Positions 6,927 to 36,653 of a DNA stretch of 64,000 nucleotides are shown here, in pieces. The notes beneath the pieces are model-generated. The model was given only the letters and a program-made list of their open reading frames with translations, searched no databases and was not told the DNA's origin. Each line of letters opens with the position of its first letter. Position 1 is the first letter of the stretch. Origin of the DNA: Amycolatopsis jiangsuensis (GTDB lineage: Bacteria; Actinomycetota; Actinomycetes; Mycobacteriales; Pseudonocardiaceae); assembly GCF_014204865.1 (NCBI RefSeq), contig NZ_JACHMG010000001.1:1240001-1304000 (forward strand), written 5' to 3'. Position numbers and translations under genes: made by a program.

Positions 6927-8323
6927 TATTCGCCGTACACCGTGGTCGTGTCGTCGGAGTCCTTCGCCAGCCGGCGGGCGAGGAACAGCGACTCCAGCGC
7001 CAGCTCGATCGCCGCGGCGATCCGGCCCGCGGGCTCGTCGGAGGACACCCCGGCACGCTGGGCGACCTCGTGCAGCACCGGCAGCTCGGGCAACGCGGCC
7101 AGCACGTCCCGGCCCGGCACGCGCTCGCCGGTGGCCACCAGGTGCCCGTCGGCCACCGCTTCCGACAGCGGGCGCAGATCGAGGCCCGCGAACCGCTCCC
7201 GAGCGGTTTCCGCGACCGCCCGGCGCAGCAGGTGCACCAGGTGCTCGACCTCGCGGCCCTCCTCCCCCGGCTCGAACTCGATCTTGCCGCGCAGCACCGC
7301 GGGCACCGCATCGAGGTCCACCGGCCGGGCGACGGCCGGCTCCTCACCGGTCAGCGCGGAACGCCGCAACGCCGCCGCGGCCACGGTTTCCGCCGCCGCC
7401 ACGGCGAACCGCGCGGACACGCCGGAACGCTGGTCGATCACCGTCGACTCACGCAGATTGCGGACGAACCGGGCCAACACCTCCAGCAGCGGCTCTCCGA
7501 CCTCCGCGACGAGCTCCGCCTCCTGCCGCACGACGGCCATCTCGGCCGCCACATCGAGCGGGTAGTGCGTGCGGATCTCCGCGCCGAAGCGGTCCTTCAG
7601 CGGCGTGATGATCCGGCCACGGTTGGTGTAGTCCTCGGGGTTCGCGGTGGCCACCAGCAGCACGTCCAGCGGCAGCCGCAGCGTGTAGCCGCGAACCTGG
7701 ATGTCGCGCTCCTCCATCACGTTCAGCAGCGCGACCTGGATCCGCTCGGCCAGGTCGGGCAGCTCGTTGATCGCGACGATGCCGCGGTGCGCCCGGGGCA
7801 CGAGCCCGAAGTGGATGGTCTCCGGATCGCCCAGGCTGCGGCCTTCGGCCACCTTCACCGGGTCGACGTCACCGATCAGGTCACCGACGCTGGTGTCCGG
7901 GGTGGCCAGCTTTTCGGTGTAGCGCTCGCTGCGGTGCCGCCACGCGACCGGCAGCTCGTCGCCCAGCTCGGCGGCGCGGCGGATCGAGGCCGGCGTGATC
8001 GGGTCGAGCGGGTGCTCCCCCAGCTCGGAACCCTCGATCACCGGCGTCCACTCGTCCAGCAGCCCGGCCAGGGTGCGCAACAGGCGGGTCTTGCCCTGGC
8101 CGCGCTCGCCGAGCAGGACGACGTCGTGCCCGGCCAGCAGCGCGCGTTCGAGCTGCGGCAGCACGGTGCGGGAGAACCCGACGATGCCGGGCCAGGCGTC
8201 GCGACCGTCTCGCAGGGCGGCGAGCAGGTTTTCGTGGATCTCACGGGCGATCGGGCGCGGGGTGTACCCGGCGGCGCGGAGCTCGCCCGCGGTACGGGGA
8301 AGTGCCTCGGGAACTGCGTTCAC
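6926..8323 (-). CDS. AAA ATPase, magnesium-chelatase ChlI/MoxR-like
   Basis: A 465-residue protein. Walker A is GERGQGKTRLL at about residues 68-78, Walker B is in GIVAINELPDL, and a sensor region is in VLLVATANPEDYTNRGRIITPLKDRFG. This combination places it with ChlI/MoxR-like AAA+ proteins. The start is the GTG at 8321-8323 behind a GAAGGG ribosome binding site; upstream in-frame codons lack a site. It is co-transcribed with the VWA gene. A cobalt or magnesium chelatase role is less likely because no large chelatase subunit gene is nearby. Confidence 0.85.
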   Translation of the reverse strand: MNAVPEALPRTAGELRAAGYTPRPIAREIHENLLAALRDGRDAWPGIVGFSRTVLPQLERALLAGHDVVLLGERGQGKTRLLRTLAGLLDEWTPVIEGSELGEHPLDPITPASIRRAAELGDELPVAWRHRSERYTEKLATPDTSVGDLIGDVDPVKVAEGRSLGDPETIHFGLVPRAHRGIVAINELPDLAERIQVALLNVMEERDIQVRGYTLRLPLDVLLVATANPEDYTNRGRIITPLKDRFGAEIRTHYPLDVAAEMAVVRQEAELVAEVGEPLLEVLARFVRNLRESTVIDQRSGVSARFAVAAAETVAAAALRRSALTGEEPAVARPVDLDAVPAVLRGKIEFEPGEEGREVEHLVHLLRRAVAETARERFAGLDLRPLSEAVADGHLVATGERVPGRDVLAALPELPVLHEVAQRAGVSSDEPAGRIAAAIELALESLFLARRLAKDSDDTTTVYGE

Positions 8324-8452
8324 CCCTTCGACGCTACTGACCGTTCCGGCATCCGTCGACGTGGAGCAGCTCCAGCGTGGGCGTCCGCCGCGAATGCACG
8401 GGTCTCGTTCCCTTTTCACCGCCCTCTGCCGAGCGGCTTCGCGGTGCGGGCC

Positions 8453-8458
8453 TAAAAT
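8453..8458 (+). promoter_or_regulatory. -10 box for a leaderless transcript
   Basis: TAAAAT, an AT-rich hexamer in very GC-rich DNA, ends eight bases before the GTG of the following gene. Transcription would start at or next to the start codon. Confidence 0.55.
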
Positions 8459-8466
8459 AGGGCGTC

Positions 8467-9264
8467 GTGTGCCGACCCAGTGCGACTCTCGCCGTCTGGT
8501 CCTCCGCGTGGCTGAACGGGACCGCGGCTTCCGACGACGTCCTCGACGCCTTGCAGGCCTGGGCCGAGGCCCACGACGTGGTGGCCGCGGACCCGGCCGC
8601 CGCCGACGCGTTCGACCTTCCGCTCGCCTTCCACCGCGCGGCGACGCCCGTGCAGCTGCTGCTCGCGTTGCGCACCCAGGGCGCGGCCAGCGCCCAGCTC
8701 GTGCTTCCGGTGCCCGGTGACGTCCGCGGCCTCGGCGGCGGTGGCCCGTTCACCGAAGCGGCGCTGCGCTGCGGCGAAGCAGTGGTCCTGACCGCGCTCG
8801 GGTTCGGCTTGGTGCCCGAACCGATCGCGGAGGGCCTGATGCGCTGGACGGTCTACTCGCTCGGCACCACGGTCCCGTTGGAGTACCAGCCGCTGCCGGA
8901 CGCCGAGCACGGCCTCACCGACGCCATCCGCGCGAGCGCCGGTGCGCTGCAAGCACTGGACGTGGCCCGCGACCGCCCGGGAGTGCGGGCGGAGCTGTCC
9001 GCTCACCTGCGCGCCCGCCCCCAGGTCGAGTGGCCTGCCGGAATGCCCAGCCGGTCCCTGCGCGTCCTGCAGCGTGCGGAGGAGATCTCGGCGATCCTCG
9101 CGATCGCGCACAGCGACGACCCGGGCGGCGCCGTGTCCGCCTCGGCCGCGACCCGGCGCGCGGAGGCCCTGCGCCCGCTTTCCGACGCAGTGCGGACCGC
9201 CCGCACCGCCTCGGTGAACGAGGCCGTCCGGATCTTCTCCGACCAGGGCGACCTGCACCCCTGA
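8467..9264 (+). CDS. Conserved actinobacterial hypothetical protein
   Basis: A 265-residue protein starting at GTG 8467. It is alanine- and leucine-rich with no signal peptide, membrane segment or recognisable catalytic motif. A glycine-rich stretch occurs near residues 88-95 and a helical C-terminus with many Arg and Ala. Codon use is like its neighbours, so it is a resident gene. It is divergent from the AAA/VWA unit and convergent with ferrochelatase. I do not recognise a function. Confidence 0.7.
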   Translation: MCRPSATLAVWSSAWLNGTAASDDVLDALQAWAEAHDVVAADPAAADAFDLPLAFHRAATPVQLLLALRTQGAASAQLVLPVPGDVRGLGGGGPFTEAALRCGEAVVLTALGFGLVPEPIAEGLMRWTVYSLGTTVPLEYQPLPDAEHGLTDAIRASAGALQALDVARDRPGVRAELSAHLRARPQVEWPAGMPSRSLRVLQRAEEISAILAIAHSDDPGGAVSASAATRRAEALRPLSDAVRTARTASVNEAVRIFSDQGDLHP

Positions 9265-29930: not shown

Positions 29931-30815
29931 TCAGTGCCTGCCTGCCGGGAGGTTGGCGGCCGCTGTCGGGCTGAAGCGGGGCCGGATTCCGGTCGACCGC
30001 AGGGTGTCTGCGGTCGCTTCGTCGGCGGGCACCAGGAAGGTTGCGCGGATACCTGTGCCGTCCTGGGTCCGCATGGGCACGTACTGGAGCACGAGGGGCC
30101 CCAGCTCGGGATGGTCGAGCGTGGTGGTGCCCTCACCGCGGGTCTGCGCCGGGTATTCCTGCCACCACTGGCGGAACTCGGGACTCGCCTGGCCGACCCG
30201 GTCCACCATGGCGCTGAGCACGGGATCACCCGAATGCAGCGCCGTGCTCAGCCGGAACTCCGCGAGCAGCCGCCGGGCCTGGGTACGCCAGTCCCGGAAC
30301 AGCGTCCGGATGAACGGATCGGTGAACATCAGCGTCAGCAGGCCCCGGTCGGCGACGTCCAGCCGGGTCCAGTCGCCGAACAGCAGCCGCGCGCTCTCGT
30401 TCTGGCCGAAGCCTTCCCAGCGCGGCCCGATCAGCCAGGCCGGGGCCGGGTCGTGGTGCGCCACCAAGCGGACCAGCCCTTCGGGTGCGCCCTCCGCGCC
30501 GTCGTGCGCCGGTGCGGCCGGTCCGCGGCCGCTGAGCAGCGTGAGCACCAGTTGTGTTTCCTCGTCGGTGCAAGCCAGTGCCGCGGCGACACGGGTGAGC
30601 GCGGCGGCGGAAACCGGCACCGGGCGTGCTTGTTCGAGCCAGGTGTACAACGTGGTGCTGATCTCGGCCAGTGCTGCCACTTCTTCCCTGCGCAACCCGG
30701 CCGTCCGCCGACGGCCGGTCACCGGGAAGCCCGCGGCCGCCGGATCGATCGCGGTGCGCCGTGCCCGCAGGAAAGCGGCAAGTTCCCGCCTGCGTTCAGG
30801 ATTGTCGATAGCCAC
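29931..30815 (-). CDS. XRE-type regulator with MmyB-like ligand domain
   Basis: A 294-residue protein. The N-terminal helix-turn-helix (about residues 10-80) includes RRTAGLRREEVAALAEISTTLYTWLEQAR, the signature of the MmyB/XRE group. The C-terminal domain (about 105-270) is the MmyB-like ligand-binding domain that binds fatty acids in characterised members. It contains NESARLLF, FTDP and WWQEYP. GTG start at 30813-30815. Divergent from the hydrolase-MBL fusion gene 158 bases away. In this family the regulator commonly controls the adjacent oxidoreductase or hydrolase, so the fusion gene is its likely target. Confidence 0.88.
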   Translation of the reverse strand: MAIDNPERRRELAAFLRARRTAIDPAAAGFPVTGRRRTAGLRREEVAALAEISTTLYTWLEQARPVPVSAAALTRVAAALACTDEETQLVLTLLSGRGPAAPAHDGAEGAPEGLVRLVAHHDPAPAWLIGPRWEGFGQNESARLLFGDWTRLDVADRGLLTLMFTDPFIRTLFRDWRTQARRLLAEFRLSTALHSGDPVLSAMVDRVGQASPEFRQWWQEYPAQTRGEGTTTLDHPELGPLVLQYVPMRTQDGTGIRATFLVPADEATADTLRSTGIRPRFSPTAAANLPAGRH

Positions 30816-30973
30816 AGAACACTCCGCCCGAGCCGGGTAATCGCAGATACCAGGAAGGTCCGGCAACTGGTGACCCGCCGCCGGATCGCACACACTACTC
30901 AGGATCCGCCGGACCCGGTCGATGCCGCCGCGAGGGGAAGACCGGGCCGGGTAAGCCGGTGAGGAGTTCTGCT

Positions 30974-32638
30974 GTGCACGCCACCCATCATCCCCTGTCC
31001 GAGAGCGACGCCTTGCGGATGGCGAAAGTCCGGGCGAGCGCACAGGGCGCCGTCGACACCGGAGAGGTCCTCGTGAGCATTGCCGCCGGCGAGGACACTT
31101 CACCGACCATCGCGACCGGACCGTTTCGCACCGGCAGTCTGACCGGCGAATGGGTCGCCGCGCCGGGCACCGCTGTCGACGGAGTCGTCCTGTACTTGCA
31201 CGGCCGCCGTTTCCAGTTCGAGGAGCCGGCCGACGTGCTCGCCGGCAAGCTCTCCGCGGCCACCGGGTGGCCGGTGCTGATGCCCCGCTACCGGCTCGCC
31301 CCCGCGCATCCCCACCCGGCCGCGCTCGAGGACGCCCTCGATGCCTACCGGGCGTTGCTGGAACAGGGTTTTCCCGCCGGCCGCATCGTGCTCGTCGGCC
31401 ACTCCGCCGGGGCGACGCTGGCGTTGCAGGCGTTGCTGCGGCTCCGCGCGGCCGGTGCGCCGCTGCCGGCCGCGGCGGTCACTGTCTCACCGATCACCGA
31501 CTTCACCTTCAGCGGTGCGAGCATCGCGATCGGCGATGATGACGTGGTCACGAACCAGGAGCTTTACCAGGTACGGGGAGCGCTTCTCGGGGACGCCGAC
31601 CCGGCCGGTGCGGTTTCGCCGCTGAGCGGGGTGTGCCCGGATCTGCCCCCGCTCATGATGGCCTGCGGCAGCGTCGAGCGGCTGCTGGACGACACGGTGC
31701 GGTTTGCCGAGCGGGCCGTGGCCGCCGGCACCGAGGTCACCCTCGAACTGTACGACGGCATGCCGCACGGCTTCCCGGTCCTCGGTACAGATGCGGCGAG
31801 CCTGTTGCTGAACAGGATCGCCGAGTTCACCACCGAGCACCTCGCCCGTCGTCCGGCAGATGCGGTACGCGCTCCGCTGACCATCCGGCGGGTCGGCTGG
31901 GCGAGCTACGTGGTCACCACTGAACGCGGGACCAGAATCCTGGTGGATCCCTACCTTTCGGGCAGCGAGGGCATCCACCACGGGCTCCCGGAAAGTCCGA
32001 TCCGGCCGGCCGAGCTGACCGACGTCGACGTGGTGGTGGTGACCCACGCAGGCTTCGACCACCGCGGCCAGGCGCTGGAAATCGTCACCTCCGGACACGC
32101 CGTCCTGGTGTGCGGAACGGCATTGGGCGCGTCCGCCCGCGCGGCAGGTGTCCCCGGGGAACGGATTGCGGTGACCGTCTCCGGCGTCGAGGTGCGGCAC
32201 CGGGACGTGACGCTGCGCTCCCTGCCCGCCCGGCACGAGTCGAGCATGAGCGCCGAAGGAGCATTCGTCGCCGACCAGCCGCAGTCGTTTCTGCTCACCA
32301 CAGCCGAGGGCGCACGGGTGTTCTGCGGCGGTGACACCTCGCTGTCCCAGGATCTGCGGACCTGGGGCGAGCTCTACCGTCCGGAGACGGCCGTACTCGG
32401 CATCGGCGGAATCTGGCTGGGCGCGACCCGCGTCGTCGAACTGCCGCCCGCGGACGCCGCGGTGGCAGCCCGTTGGCTCGGGGTCTCGACCGTGCTCCCC
32501 GTCCACCACGTCCCCGGCGACGCCATGCCGGCACAACTCGCCGCGAACCTTGCCGACGACCCGATCGAGGTCGTCCCCCTGGCATTCGGCGAGAGCTGGA
32601 CCGCGGCCGGGACCGGGCGGCCGGTCCGGCGAACCTAG
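30974..32638 (+). CDS. Fusion of alpha/beta hydrolase (HSL type) and metallo-beta-lactamase-fold domain
   Basis: A 554-residue two-domain protein. Residues 1-285 are an alpha/beta hydrolase-3 domain. The oxyanion motif is HGR instead of the usual HGG, the nucleophile elbow is GHSAGA (Ser near 143), and the His is in DGMPHGFPVL. Residues 290-554 are an UlaG-like MBL fold. Its metal motif reads HAGFDH where HxHxDH is expected, so the second His is Gly. GGDTSLS and PVHHVPGD follow. GTG 30974 chosen because GAGGAG lies seven bases upstream. No signal peptide. Possibly an esterase/lactonase acting in sequence on one substrate; function unknown. Confidence 0.85.
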   Translation: MHATHHPLSESDALRMAKVRASAQGAVDTGEVLVSIAAGEDTSPTIATGPFRTGSLTGEWVAAPGTAVDGVVLYLHGRRFQFEEPADVLAGKLSAATGWPVLMPRYRLAPAHPHPAALEDALDAYRALLEQGFPAGRIVLVGHSAGATLALQALLRLRAAGAPLPAAAVTVSPITDFTFSGASIAIGDDDVVTNQELYQVRGALLGDADPAGAVSPLSGVCPDLPPLMMACGSVERLLDDTVRFAERAVAAGTEVTLELYDGMPHGFPVLGTDAASLLLNRIAEFTTEHLARRPADAVRAPLTIRRVGWASYVVTTERGTRILVDPYLSGSEGIHHGLPESPIRPAELTDVDVVVVTHAGFDHRGQALEIVTSGHAVLVCGTALGASARAAGVPGERIAVTVSGVEVRHRDVTLRSLPARHESSMSAEGAFVADQPQSFLLTTAEGARVFCGGDTSLSQDLRTWGELYRPETAVLGIGGIWLGATRVVELPPADAAVAARWLGVSTVLPVHHVPGDAMPAQLAANLADDPIEVVPLAFGESWTAAGTGRPVRRT

Positions 32639-32696: not shown

Positions 32697-34304
32697 CTAG
32701 CCGACCACCGCCCCGGTCTTCGGGTCCAGTTTCAGTGGTTTCGCCTGGGGATGGGCGAAGTCGAACATGCCGTTCAGCGGGGCGGCGAGCGCGTCGTAGG
32801 AGCCGCCGCCGATCCGGCCCAGCCGCCAGTTGTCCTCGATGAACCGCAGCACCGAGGTCTGGTCGGTCATCGTGTGGTCGACGTGGTTGACCCGGCTGTA
32901 GGGCGAGAGCACCAGCAGCGGCAGCCGGGGTCCGTATCCGCAGCGGTCGGCGGCCCCGCCGAGGCGCACCGGATGCGACGTGCACACCGGCGAATCCTGG
33001 TCGCTGTCGTGCGAACCGTTGACGATCTTCGAGGGCACGTGGTCGTACCAGCCGTCGGAATCGTCGTAGGCGAGCACGATCGCGGTCGAGTCCCACTTCG
33101 GGGACGCCTGGATACGGTTCACCTCGTCGACGACGAAAGCCTGTTCGTCCAGCGGATCGGAGTAGCCCGCGTGGCCGTCCTGATAGGACGGTGCCTTCAG
33201 GAAGCTCACCGCGGGCATGGTGCCCGCCTTCAGCGCGTCGTTGAAGTCCGCGACGTCGTACTGGTGGTTAGCCTGGTCCGTCTGCCCCACCGCGTGCAGC
33301 GACGACGGTGGCAGGTGCTTCTGATTCGCCGTCGAGCGGTAGTACTGGAACGGCTCGTGGTGCGGGCTGTAGTCCACCACCGCCTGGTCGCCGACGTTCG
33401 GATGCTGAGTGCCGCAGACCGCGTAGCCGTTCTCCTCACCGGTGGGGCGGAACCCGCCCTCGAACCAGCCCCACGTGACCCCGCGCCGGTTGAGCAGGTC
33501 GCCGACGTTGCGGCCCTGGAAGGCCCCGAGGTTGTCGGTCGCGGTGTGGTTCTTGTCCGAGCAGTCGTCGAACGCCGGGTCCGGGTCGGTGATCATGGTG
33601 CCGACGCCGTGGGAGTCCGGGGACGCGGCGGTGTTCGGGTCGACCTTCGGCTCGCCGCTGACCGAGTCCACCGGCTGCAGGCCATGCGTCTGCCCGGAGA
33701 TCAGGTTGATCGCGCCGGGGCTGGACGGGCCGAACACCGCGTCGAAGGAATTGTCGTTCAGCGAATAGTGCTGCGCGTAGTTCCACATCGCGGTCACGGT
33801 GTTGCCGTCGAAGTAGTCCATCACCAGACCGGGCTCGCCGAACAGCACCGGCTGCCCGGTGCACTTGTCCTTCTCGGTGTGCTCGACGAACTTGTCCATC
33901 TTCCCGCCGTTGAACGCGGCCTGTTCCTTGTTGTAGTCGTGCGCCTGGTCGCAGGTCAGCGCCTGGTCCGGGCTGAGCCGCTTCGGGTTGTAGGCGTTCG
34001 GGTTGTGCTCGAGCAGCTCCGGGGTCAGGCCGTTGACCGCGGGGGTGCCCGGCGCGGCCTGGAACGGTGTGCCGTTCTCGTTGGTGGCCTTCGGATACGT
34101 GCCGAAGTAGTGGTCGAAGGAGATGTTCTCGCCGAAGATCACCACCACGTGCTTGATCGGTGTGGCGGTGCCGAAGCTCTCCGCCGCCACCGCGTGCGCG
34201 GGCGCTGCCGGTTCGGCCGCACTGCTCGCGCACGCCGCCGCCAGTGCCGCGGTCGCGGCCAGCGCCGCCGCGGCGATGGTCCGCCGTCGCCTGGTCCGAT
34301 CCAC
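32697..34304 (-). CDS. Secreted phosphoesterase, phospholipase C/acid phosphatase superfamily
   Basis: A 535-residue protein. The signal sequence has an Arg-rich start and a marginal lipobox LAAAC (Cys25). The motif GENISFDHYFGTYP at 58-71 carries the metal and nucleophile residues (Glu59, Asn60, Ser62, Asp64) of the AcpA/PlcC phosphoesterase family. A late DDSDGWYDHVPSK supplies further metal ligands. The gene starts 17 bases from efeB, so it is likely the last gene of the efe operon. It may release phosphate from lipids or organophosphates outside the cell. The link to iron uptake is only positional. Confidence 0.87.
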   Translation of the reverse strand: MDRTRRRRTIAAAALAATAALAAACASSAAEPAAPAHAVAAESFGTATPIKHVVVIFGENISFDHYFGTYPKATNENGTPFQAAPGTPAVNGLTPELLEHNPNAYNPKRLSPDQALTCDQAHDYNKEQAAFNGGKMDKFVEHTEKDKCTGQPVLFGEPGLVMDYFDGNTVTAMWNYAQHYSLNDNSFDAVFGPSSPGAINLISGQTHGLQPVDSVSGEPKVDPNTAASPDSHGVGTMITDPDPAFDDCSDKNHTATDNLGAFQGRNVGDLLNRRGVTWGWFEGGFRPTGEENGYAVCGTQHPNVGDQAVVDYSPHHEPFQYYRSTANQKHLPPSSLHAVGQTDQANHQYDVADFNDALKAGTMPAVSFLKAPSYQDGHAGYSDPLDEQAFVVDEVNRIQASPKWDSTAIVLAYDDSDGWYDHVPSKIVNGSHDSDQDSPVCTSHPVRLGGAADRCGYGPRLPLLVLSPYSRVNHVDHTMTDQTSVLRFIEDNWRLGRIGGGSYDALAAPLNGMFDFAHPQAKPLKLDPKTGAVVG

Positions 34305-34320
34305 TCGGTACCCCTTCCGC

Positions 34321-35487
34321 TCAGCTCAGCAAGGCCCGGCCGTAGTGGTCGGCCGGATCCGTCACGCCGGGGAACAGGTGGAAGTACCCACCCCCGAACG
34401 GCGAGACGTAGTCGGTGAGCGGCTCGCCGGCGAGCCGCCCCTGCACGGCCTCGAACTGCCGCTCGAGATCGCGCTGATAGCAGGTGAAGACGAGCCCCAT
34501 GTCGAGGTTCCCGTTCGCGTCCACCCCGCGGTCGTAGTTGACCGACCGGCGCAGGATGCGTTCGCCGTCGGTGCGCGCGGTCCGCGGGTTCGCCAGCCGG
34601 ATGTGGCTGGTCAGCGGCACCACGGTGCCGATCGGGTCCTCCCCGTACCGCGGCGCGTCCTGTTCGGCCGCGCCGTCGAGCGGGGCCCCGGTGTCCCGCC
34701 GCCGCCCGATCATGTTCTCCTGCTCGGACAGTGACACCCGGTCCCAGAACTCCACGAGCATCCGGATCAGCCGGATCACCTGGTAGCTTCCGCCGTCCTC
34801 GGTCCACACCAGACGGTCCAGTTCGGACTGTTGCGGGTTCGCCGTGCCGTCCTTGAACCCGAGGAGGTTGCGCGGGGTGCCGGAGGGCCGTGGAGGCGAG
34901 CTGAAGCCGTCGATCTTCCACCGCAGCTGCATCCCACCCCGGGTCGCGCGGGTGAGATCCCGCAACGCGTGCAGTACGGTGTCCGGCTCGGCGGCGTTCA
35001 GCACCAGGCTGAGATCGCCGTGGCACCACTGCGGGTCGAGCGCGTCGTCCGGGAAGGTGGGCATCGTCTTGAGCTTCGGCGGTTTCCGTGCGGCGAGCCC
35101 GAACCGGTCGTCGAACAGCGACGCCCCGGCACCCACGAGCACCGACAACGCGCCACCGGGGACCTGCGGGCCGAGCACCCCGGAATCCGCGGGAGGACCG
35201 GTGATCCCGAGCGCCGCGGGCGCACCGCCGGCGGTCAGGAACCGGGCCCGGTCGGTCAGCTCCCGCAGCAGAGCGGTCAGCTCGGCGCGGTCCTCGGCGA
35301 TCACGTCGAACGCGGCCACCACCGAATGCCGCGCCGGTTCGGCGAGCACCGCCGCCTGCCGCGGACCGTGGAACGACGCGTTCTGCCCGTTCTGCCCCGC
35401 CGCGGCACTGCCGGTGAGCCCGGCCAGTCCCGCCCCGGCCCCCGCGCCCGCCGCACCACGCAGGAACGCGCGCCTCGCCAGCGTCAC
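34321..35487 (-). CDS. efeB: Dyp-type haem peroxidase EfeB (Tat-exported)
   Basis: A 388-residue protein. The N-terminus has the twin-arginine motif ARRAFLRG and a long Ala/Gly hydrophobic core. The Dyp fold shows GFKDGTANP (catalytic Asp of GxxDG), the haem-ligand His in [10 protein letters not shown] and an Arg downstream. Known role: EfeB oxidises Fe2+ (or frees iron from haem) for the EfeUOB importer. Its ATG overlaps the efeO stop by four bases (ATGA). No efeU permease gene is next to it. Confidence 0.92.
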
Positions 35488-36653
35488 GAGATCCTCCTCG
35501 GTTCGACGATCGCCGCGATCGGCGCGAGGCGTTCGGTCAGCTCCGCCACGTCGCCGTTGAGCCGCTCACGCTGCCGGCGGTCCAGTGCGGACAGCGACGT
35601 CCCCGCCGCGGCGTGCAGATCGTGCTCGGTGCGGTCGAGCCAGGCGTCGAGGTCCTTCAGCGCCGGGAAGCGGGTGTTGAGCAACGGACGCAGCACGTCG
35701 AGCACCGCGCGCGTACCGGCGAGGTTGGCGCCCGCGGTCGCCAGGTTCGACCCGCTGCCGTAGTCGGTCCGCCCGGTCAGCTCGAACTGGAGGGTGTTCT
35801 CCATGATCTCGTGTGCGCGCAGGCCGAGGTCGTTCTGGTCGATCTGGGCGTCGCCGAACGAACTGCGCAGCTCCCGCACGTCCGCGTCGAGCCGATCCGC
35901 GACCGGGACCAGCGCCGCGGCGGACTCGCCGTGCCACAAGCCGTTCTCCAGCCGGTGGAATCCGGTGAATCCGGGGTCACCGGCCCCGCCGGGCAGCCCG
36001 TCGGTGGTGCCGTTGATCGCACCGTCCGAATCACCGAACGCGTCGTAGGCGGCGCCGAGGCGCTCGTAGGTCAGGTGCGCGGTGAGCCACGCACGCTGGG
36101 CGGCGCCGCGGTCACCCGTGCGCACCGCCTGTTTCACGCTCTCGGTCTGGCCGGCGAGCGTGGCGAGACCGTCCGCCACGTAGGCGTGGTAGCGCCTGAG
36201 CGGCTCGAGCAGATCCGCGTAGGTCACCGGGACCACGGCCGGCCCCGGACGGTCGGTGCCGCCGCTGACCGTCACTGCCGGGCCGACGAACGGCGTGCCG
36301 TCCTCGGGCGCGCACCGCAGCGCGTACGCGCCGTTGCCGAGGTTGACCGGCAACGACCGGGTCGTGCCGGTCCCGACGCCCTCCAGCTCCCCGAACACCG
36401 TGCCGGTCGCCGGGTCGACGAGCTCGACCTCCATGGTGACCGCGGCGTTGTTGCGGACCCGCAAGGTCTGCGGACCCGGCGGCGGCGCGGTCCAGCCCGC
36501 ACCGCACGCCGCTCGCGTCACCTCGATCGGACCGTCCTGCGCGGGTTCGTCCGCGCAGCCGGCCAGAACCGCAGCCAGACTCACAGCCAGGACCGGGGCC
36601 AGGACGACGGCAGGGACACCGGCACCGCCGTGGCGCACCGCGCACCGCCGCAC
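35484..36653 (-). CDS. efeO: Iron-uptake lipoprotein EfeO (cupredoxin plus M75 imelysin domain)
   Basis: A 389-residue lipoprotein. The signal ends at Cys33 in VLAGC. A cupredoxin-like domain (about 40-130) with candidate metal residues is followed by the imelysin/M75 domain (about 145-380) with HLTYE in place of the HxxE motif and [11 protein letters not shown]. Known role: periplasmic iron capture for EfeU. It is the first gene of efeO-efeB-phosphoesterase, 118 bases after a peptidase-like gene on the same strand. The usual first gene, efeU, is missing here. Confidence 0.9.

Follow-up and report, generated by a model that had tools for sequence, protein, structure and literature searches.

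An α/β hydrolase fused to a metallo-β-lactamase domain with an altered metal motif in Amycolatopsis jiangsuensis

The gene described here lies in a 64,000-nucleotide stretch of the Amycolatopsis jiangsuensis genome (assembly GCF_014204865.1, contig NZ_JACHMG010000001.1, positions 1,240,001 to 1,304,000 of the forward strand), hereafter referred to as the window. It occupies positions 30974..32638 of the + strand and encodes a protein of 554 amino acids, in which an α/β hydrolase of the hormone-sensitive lipase (HSL) type is followed by a UPF0173/UlaG-like metallo-β-lactamase (MBL) domain. In the MBL half, one metal ligand, the second histidine of the HxHxDH motif, is replaced; the same change is also seen outside the fusion and marks a wider branch of MBL proteins. 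Judging from the sequences, and with our confidence evenly poised, we propose that the product would be a two-domain enzyme that hydrolyses an ester or lactone, with a metal centre short of one site-1 histidine that probably works from site 2, and with a dedicated regulator.

The fusion gene and its metal site

The reading frame is uninterrupted between a GTG start at position 30974 and a stop at 32638, with the sequence AGGAG seven bases 5' of the start; a longer start at 30959 is possible. A Pfam scan of the whole protein returned Abhydrolase_3 (residues 72-267, E 2.5e-38) and Lactamase_B_2 (residues 320-512, E 1.3e-13), both above the cut-off. An earlier interpretation of the bare DNA letters (the sequence-only reading) had described a single-protein fusion, and had suggested searching the two halves separately and looking for the same fusion elsewhere. 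When scanned alone, the hydrolase part (residues 1-289, 30974..31840) and the MBL part (residues 298-554, 31865..32635; both on the + strand, as are all residues located below) gave the same domain calls as the whole protein, and 59 other database proteins were found to carry both domains, which bears out the fusion.

These relatives were obtained from a search of about 5.8 billion proteins, which yielded 984 matches at E ≤1e-3 among 8000 candidates scored, with the best 120 listed. The fused set consists of 60 proteins (the window protein plus 59) from the first 62 matches, each of at least 440 amino acids and with both Pfam domains; P0042 and P0051 were left out as short. As best matches of the search, the 59 relatives are 44-84% identical to the window protein, and they are labelled Amycolatopsis, Sciscionella, Nocardia, Pseudonocardia or Solirubrobacter, or derive from metagenomes. 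They rule out a frameshift that artificially joins two genes, the circumstance under which the sequence-only reading would have given up the fusion. The reverse was seen once, in Pseudonocardia alaniniphila (L006, about 7063-8753), in which the two halves lie in different frames in an apparent break of the fusion, due either to a recent event or to a sequencing error. The fusion protein is a genuine two-domain protein that is shared with relatives.

With regard to its distribution, the fusion gene is rare and patchy. A match at E ≤1e-30 was present in 5 of 390 genomes of the family, the own genome included, and among 394 genomes drawn from the class only the own genome matched at E ≤1e-40; a search of this genome for a second fusion copy found none, so the gene is single-copy there. 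In the phylum sample, 41 of 396 genomes gave a match at E ≤1e-20, and the single strong one besides the own genome (G414, E 2.6e-64; next 3.2e-29) is a stand-alone MBL protein with the motif HGAWDH. The remaining 28 phylum loci that were fetched all carry HGHxDH. One of the loci considered below (L005) comes from a record titled Nocardia alni, which the taxonomy listing places in Frankia.

Alignment with TM1162 revealed a difference at just one metal ligand, the second histidine of HxHxDH, which is G360 in the HAGFDH motif of the window protein (residues 358-363, 32045..32062). By contrast, H358, D362 and H363 of the same motif, the site-1 ligand H421 (32234..32236), the bridging ligand D454 (32333..32335) and the site-2 ligand H511 (32504..32506) are retained; the GGDT and PVHHVPG segments noted in the sequence-only reading are found at residues 452-455 and 509-515. 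Across the 60 fused rows, H358, D362, H363, H421 and D454 are invariant and H511 is present in 59, the remaining row having a gap, whereas position 360 is Gly in 59 and Ala in one. Because both the ligand positions and G360 are conserved over 60 fused proteins, the altered motif, which the sequence-only reading had already pointed out, is not due to chance. Furthermore, column comparison places W309 (31898..31900) at the position of the second-sphere histidine of TM1162, identified as His8 in the available part of PMC7846560.

UPF0173 hydrolases (TM1162, Igni18; NF001911/PRK00685) were the best solved-structure matches of the MBL half both by sequence and by fold, and both halves gave fold matches. 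The MBL half shares with them the fold and every ligand position but one, and departs from them in having Gly for the second histidine, Trp for the second-sphere His8 and a fused esterase; it lacks an HxHxDH motif with both histidines and scores 90.4 bits (whole) and 93.1 bits (domain) against the NF001911 cut-off of 144. According to structure titles and sequences, TM1162 variants with H8A and H48A changes have been solved, which shows only that the fold tolerates such losses. From UlaG L-ascorbate-6-phosphate lactonase the MBL half differs in its altered motif, and its NF008688 score is 16.2 bits against a cut-off of 306. The esterases of the HSL family Est8, EstD11, E40 and Aes72 are 34-38% identical to the hydrolase half and have the same fold, the GxSxG motif and the triad serine and histidine; they differ from the fusion in their HGGG motif, replaced here by HGRR, in having no C-terminal MBL domain, and in that 20 of the 60 fused proteins lack the Ser and/or His. 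The sequence-only reading knew of no described esterase-MBL fusion, and none was found in searches of an open-access library, nor was any description of an HxAxDH or HxGxDH metal motif; the accessible portions of papers on the UlaG family (PMC3219644) and ThnS (PMC8115136), and of PMC10318434, contain nothing on either. Both folds are known, and within that library the esterase-MBL combination and the branch short of one ligand are new variants.

A wider branch short of the second ligand histidine

Among the relatives, 27 are stand-alone MBL proteins of approximately 250 amino acids, 24 of which carry THAG[FY]DH, the others reading THAGIDH, THVGFDH and TYAGFDH. A wider search that started from two HGA-type proteins produced 1728 matches; in the best 120, position 360 is Ala in 116, Ser in two, Thr in one and Gly in one, P0171 being counted, and His in none, while each of the six other ligands is present in 119 or 120 of them. 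Source labels among the HGA-type matches listed include Chloroflexota, Desulfobacteraceae, Spirochaetota and Actinomycetota. MBL-fold enzymes are usually identified by their HxHxDH signature, and a branch that keeps all ligand positions except the second histidine amounts to a natural experiment on the role of that residue.

For a column comparison, 59 fused, 27 stand-alone and 118 HGA rows (204 in total) were set against 31 HGHxDH rows; P0044 was left out of the column counts and of the tree described below owing to its short MBL part, and two of the 120 HGA rows were left out of the column comparison for their length. Since 28 of the HGHxDH rows were picked by motif, His360 is present there by selection, although the unselected phylum loci also carried it in 28 of 28. 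At position 309, the second-sphere histidine is present in all 31 HGHxDH rows and in only three of the 204 HAG or HGA rows; it has thus mostly been lost together with the second ligand histidine, and its absence from 201 of 204 rows suggests a remodelled metal site.

In search of a substitute ligand, we selected columns in which one residue reaches at least 85% in all three ligand-short sets separately but not in the 31 HGHxDH rows, a test that is blind to residues peculiar to one branch. Seven columns passed (G337, V356, I370, L378, G381, W501 and P514), none of them an obvious ligand; with the exception of Trp501, no polar or charged residue was common to the three sets (204 rows) and absent from the 31 HGHxDH rows, and no new acid, His or Cys was shared by all three. 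Within the HAG branch (fused and stand-alone), several conserved residues depart from the commonest HGHxDH letter, among them D434, D411, E317 and C451. The foremost candidate for a substitute ligand is D434 (32273..32275), conserved in the HAG branch only and located in the stretch after the third histidine: all 59 fused and all 27 stand-alone rows have Asp there, and all 31 HGHxDH rows have Gly. As the 118 HGA rows have Gly (104), Ala (12), Ser (1) or Thr (1) at this position, D434 cannot explain the wider ligand-short branch. C451 is not specific to the lost ligand, since His451 is common to HGHxDH (26 of 31) and HGA (115 of 118) rows. H335 was also considered and rejected, as it seemed a substitute in eight fused MBL pieces but is Ser, Arg or another residue in stand-alone relatives. 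The sequence-only reading would also have been refuted by a full ligand set drawn from other residues; on this point, the whole ligand-short set has no substitute in common, and a candidate such as D434 is confined to the HAG branch. With a reservation for D434, we read the alignments as indicating a reorganised metal site more than the swap of one residue.

Several further observations concern this branch. Three of five other HGA- or HAG-type MBL proteins scanned exceed the NF001911 cut-off despite the missing second histidine, and the model therefore mixes full and short ligand sets. A shorter relative, P0064, reads THAGYHH, so that the ligand Asp of the motif is also changed; it is outside the row counts. 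A quick MBL tree, whose long branches and open forks fix no order of fusion and separation, places two stand-alone rows outside the whole fused set and the other 25 within it; the stand-alone rows come mostly from short metagenome contigs, and a separate hydrolase gene may lie nearby. The stand-alone HGAWDH relative in G414 (L047, 9249-9971) sits among catabolic genes, which encode a nucleoside hydrolase, a mandelate racemase/muconate lactonizing enzyme and a fumarylacetoacetate (FAA) hydrolase, a linalool dehydratase-like protein and a branched-chain-type ABC transporter.

Loss of catalytic residues in the hydrolase half

By alignment, the nucleophile of the hydrolase half is S144 in GHSAGA (residues 142-147; codon 31403-31405) and the triad histidine is H265 (31766-31768), with E235 or D239/D240 as candidates for the acid. 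In terms of family membership, the protein has the fold and Pfam score of bacterial HSL esterases (Abhydrolase_3) as well as GxSxG and the triad His, but not the HGGG oxyanion motif, in place of which it has HGRR at residues 76-79; its scores are also below the NCBIfam cut-offs of the named HSL subfamilies (GESAG, 154.3 versus 430; GTSAG, 125.2 versus 380). The sequence-only reading had singled out HGR for HGG as a peculiarity. It is present here, but it is not unusual, being the commonest form among fused proteins: residue 78 is Arg in 33, a gap in 15 and Gly in nine of the 60 rows.

Ser144 and/or His265 are absent from 20 of the 60 fused rows, in which the MBL half is kept. Fifteen of these 20 form one clade with GRANGA-like motifs for GHSAGA and without an HG motif. 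In this clade (within P0045-P0062), the serine is lost throughout and the histidine in 14 of 15 rows, with an esterase half that is near full length and may have a binding or scaffold role. Mean identity between these 15 rows and the 40 intact rows was 0.34 in the hydrolase half and 0.605 in the MBL half, compared with 0.557 and 0.649, respectively, within the intact rows. The starred branches of the quick tree force at least four label changes over 19 triad-less rows, which we read as four losses of the esterase, two of them resting on single rows, namely P0023, with a Ser-to-Thr change, and the short P0033. In the light of this repeated loss of Ser or His with the MBL half kept, the MBL domain appears to be maintained by selection, and the esterase to have been given up on several occasions. 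The MBL half is the conserved core of the fused proteins, and the fusion offers an example of a catalytic domain that has degenerated repeatedly next to a partner that stayed constant. The window's own copy retains the triad Ser and His, and the two-step hydrolase suggested by the sequence-only reading fits it; as a general rule joint catalysis does not hold, because 20 of 60 fused proteins are without Ser144 and/or His265.

Regulation, proposed mechanism and gene neighbourhoods

Facing the fusion gene, as stated in the sequence-only reading, is a divergent XRE/MmyB-type regulator gene (29931..30815, - strand; the start at 30815 was inferred from homologues), whose product gave Pfam matches to HTH_31 (30 bits versus 27) and MLTR_LBD (136.8 versus 26.3 bits, E 9.9e-40). 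This combination of a helix-turn-helix domain and an MLTR ligand-binding domain, encoded divergently from an enzyme gene, is that of MmyB-like regulators (MltR, PDB 3pxp). The part of PMC3406030 available reports such regulators divergent from short-chain dehydrogenase/reductase, beta-lactamase and antibiotic-related genes, beta-lactamase-domain genes thus being among their neighbours, and mentions myristic acid in a solved member of the family. What differs here is that the regulator is paired with a fused esterase-MBL gene and with an element specific to the locus. Orthologues of the regulator are encoded opposite the same operon in A. nivea, A. benzoatilytica and the two Sciscionella copies; compared with the A. 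benzoatilytica protein, the regulators of the window and the other loci show 73-81% identity.

The aligned promoter stretches of these loci share a block. In the window, the 158-bp divergent intergenic stretch contains the candidate operator TACCAGGAAGGTCCGGCAACTGGT (24 bp, 30848..30871, + strand), which includes the inverted repeat ACCAG-N13-CTGGT and matches the shared pattern exactly. With up to one mismatch allowed, the pattern TACYAGGAAGGTNCNNNNNCTGGT is confined, in the four genomes concerned, to the five regulator-bearing loci examined, with one copy at each; in the own genome, the closest other sites have two mismatches, and the control with the reversed pattern gave 0. It is absent from P. 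alaniniphila, which has no regulator in the stretch examined. The element contains ACYAG-N13-CTGGT and is plausible as a dimer site.

Under the hydrolase proposal, the esterase half of this copy would open an ester or lactone of hydrophobic, perhaps aromatic, character, and the MBL domain would hydrolyse the same molecule or the esterase product. The MBL domain would act mainly from the intact site 2 (D362, H363, H511 and D454), with H358 and H421 available for positioning water or substrate or for weak binding of a second metal, much as in the mono-zinc B2 enzymes. In degenerate lineages, the esterase half would remain as no more than a scaffold or a cap for binding. The MmyB-type regulator would sense a small ligand and control the operon via the inverted repeat. 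The nature of the substrate is a guess drawn from the HSL half and from a neighbouring transporter: in A. nivea, a major facilitator superfamily (MFS) gene assigned to the aromatic acid/H+ symporters (264 bits, below the cut-off of 418.55 for that model) lies between regulator and fusion, and A. benzoatilytica has one in the same place whose product is 84.7% identical over 450 residues. As a precedent for the metal site, the accessible text of PMC5018959 describes B2 beta-lactamases as having the first His replaced by Asn and being active only with a single zinc in site 2. The likeness (CphA) consists of a natural replacement of one site-1 histidine with site 2 kept; however, B2 enzymes replace the first histidine (Asn116) and the ligand-short branch the second (Gly/Ala), and B2 site 2 has Cys221.

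A number of points weigh against this proposal. Arg at residue 78 of the oxyanion motif leaves the esterase activity of the hydrolase half unproven, and even among intact proteins the MBL half is better conserved than the hydrolase half (mean identity 0.649 versus 0.557). Among the rows counted as losses, P0023 has Thr for Ser, and P0033 and P0044 are each a lone, shortened sequence and may be imperfect. The conserved D434, D411, E317 and C451 might include a substitute ligand specific to the window's branch. Both ligand binding by the MLTR domain and DNA binding by the regulator are inferred; with the A. nivea regulator as tblastn query, no orthologue was found in L005-L009, so control by it is not general. 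The MFS gene is absent at the window's own locus, and neighbours other than the regulator differ between genera, for which reason no general pathway is claimed.

The best-surviving alternative, which we nevertheless consider rather unlikely, is an ordinary dinuclear hydrolase, with a site 1 formed by H358, H421 and D454 and completed by water or by a side chain specific to the branch, e.g., D434, so that the missing histidine would matter little. All other ligands are indeed kept, H358 and H421 would hardly be invariant were site 1 never used, and D434, after the third histidine, is invariant in the HAG branch. The HGA-type proteins nevertheless have no Asp434, which leaves the wider branch unexplained, and the remodelling suggested by the missing second-sphere histidine also speaks against it. 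As for metal content, PMC7846560 gives two Ni for TM1162 (3X2Z), in favour of a dinuclear site, and one Mn for the UlaG structure 2WYM, against it.

An ETHE1-kind mononuclear iron oxygenase, in which H358, H421 and D454 would hold Fe(II) and the substrate would be oxidised, appears improbable to us. In the section of PMC4383860 available, ETHE1 (a persulfide dioxygenase) is described with one iron at site 1, bound via His79, His135 and Asp154, and with its second motif histidine unbound; the three corresponding positions are present in the MBL half of the fusion, by alignment position only, and make a redox reading possible; unlike ETHE1, this half is without the second motif histidine. The site-2 ligands are all kept as well, and a hydrolase fits at least as well. 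The redox or lactone-quenching activity, the mononuclear site and the fatty-acid-type ligand of the regulator, all put forward in the sequence-only reading, are thus conjectural. The nearest relatives by sequence and fold among the matches listed are UPF0173 hydrolases, and no redox partner gene shared by the loci examined was found. ETHE1 and B2 enzymes were not among the 50 fold matches listed (pdb_via, Foldseek top 1000), which excludes nothing, and ETHE1 is also missing from the sequence matches listed. Because the relatives of both halves are hydrolases, we rank hydrolysis from site 2 first, a dinuclear hydrolase second and an iron oxygenase third.

A catalytically dead MBL half serving the esterase in binding or oligomerisation would account for the missing ligand, but it is very hard to credit, given that the pattern is the reverse, the esterase losing Ser or His with the six MBL ligand positions kept, and that the MBL half occurs alone. 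A sequencing artefact is practically negligible in view of 59 other fused protein clusters in several genera and many metagenomes.

Returning to hydrolysis from site 2, we put forward a broader picture as a tentative possibility, with more doubt than confidence. An unnamed, large MBL branch without the second HxHxDH histidine, and nearly always without its second-sphere partner, would run a reorganised, probably mononuclear centre; the actinobacterial esterase fusion would be a one-chain, two-step hydrolase, in some cases with its own ligand-sensing regulator, and several lineages would then have turned the esterase into a dead scaffold. The ligand-short branch bears on whether mononuclear MBL chemistry arose repeatedly, in B2 enzymes, in ETHE1 and perhaps here.

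Conserved operon partners beyond the regulator were sought and discarded, since the loci share neighbours only partially. Crotonase, Rid-like and regulator genes, the last of which we take to be IclR-like, lie near the fusion in A. nivea and Sciscionella, and MFS genes in two Amycolatopsis; an esterase gene is near the Sciscionella fusion, and Nocardia alni gave a weak Rid-type match. Beside the crotonase and the IclR-like regulator, A. nivea and Sciscionella (L002, L003) have in common a protein of 471-474 amino acids, the A. nivea copy of which contains two Rid-family stretches. In the window itself, genes for an imelysin-type protein, a Dyp-type peroxidase and a phosphoesterase follow one another at positions 32697-36653 (- strand), resembling an EfeO/EfeB-like set to which a phosphoesterase has been added.
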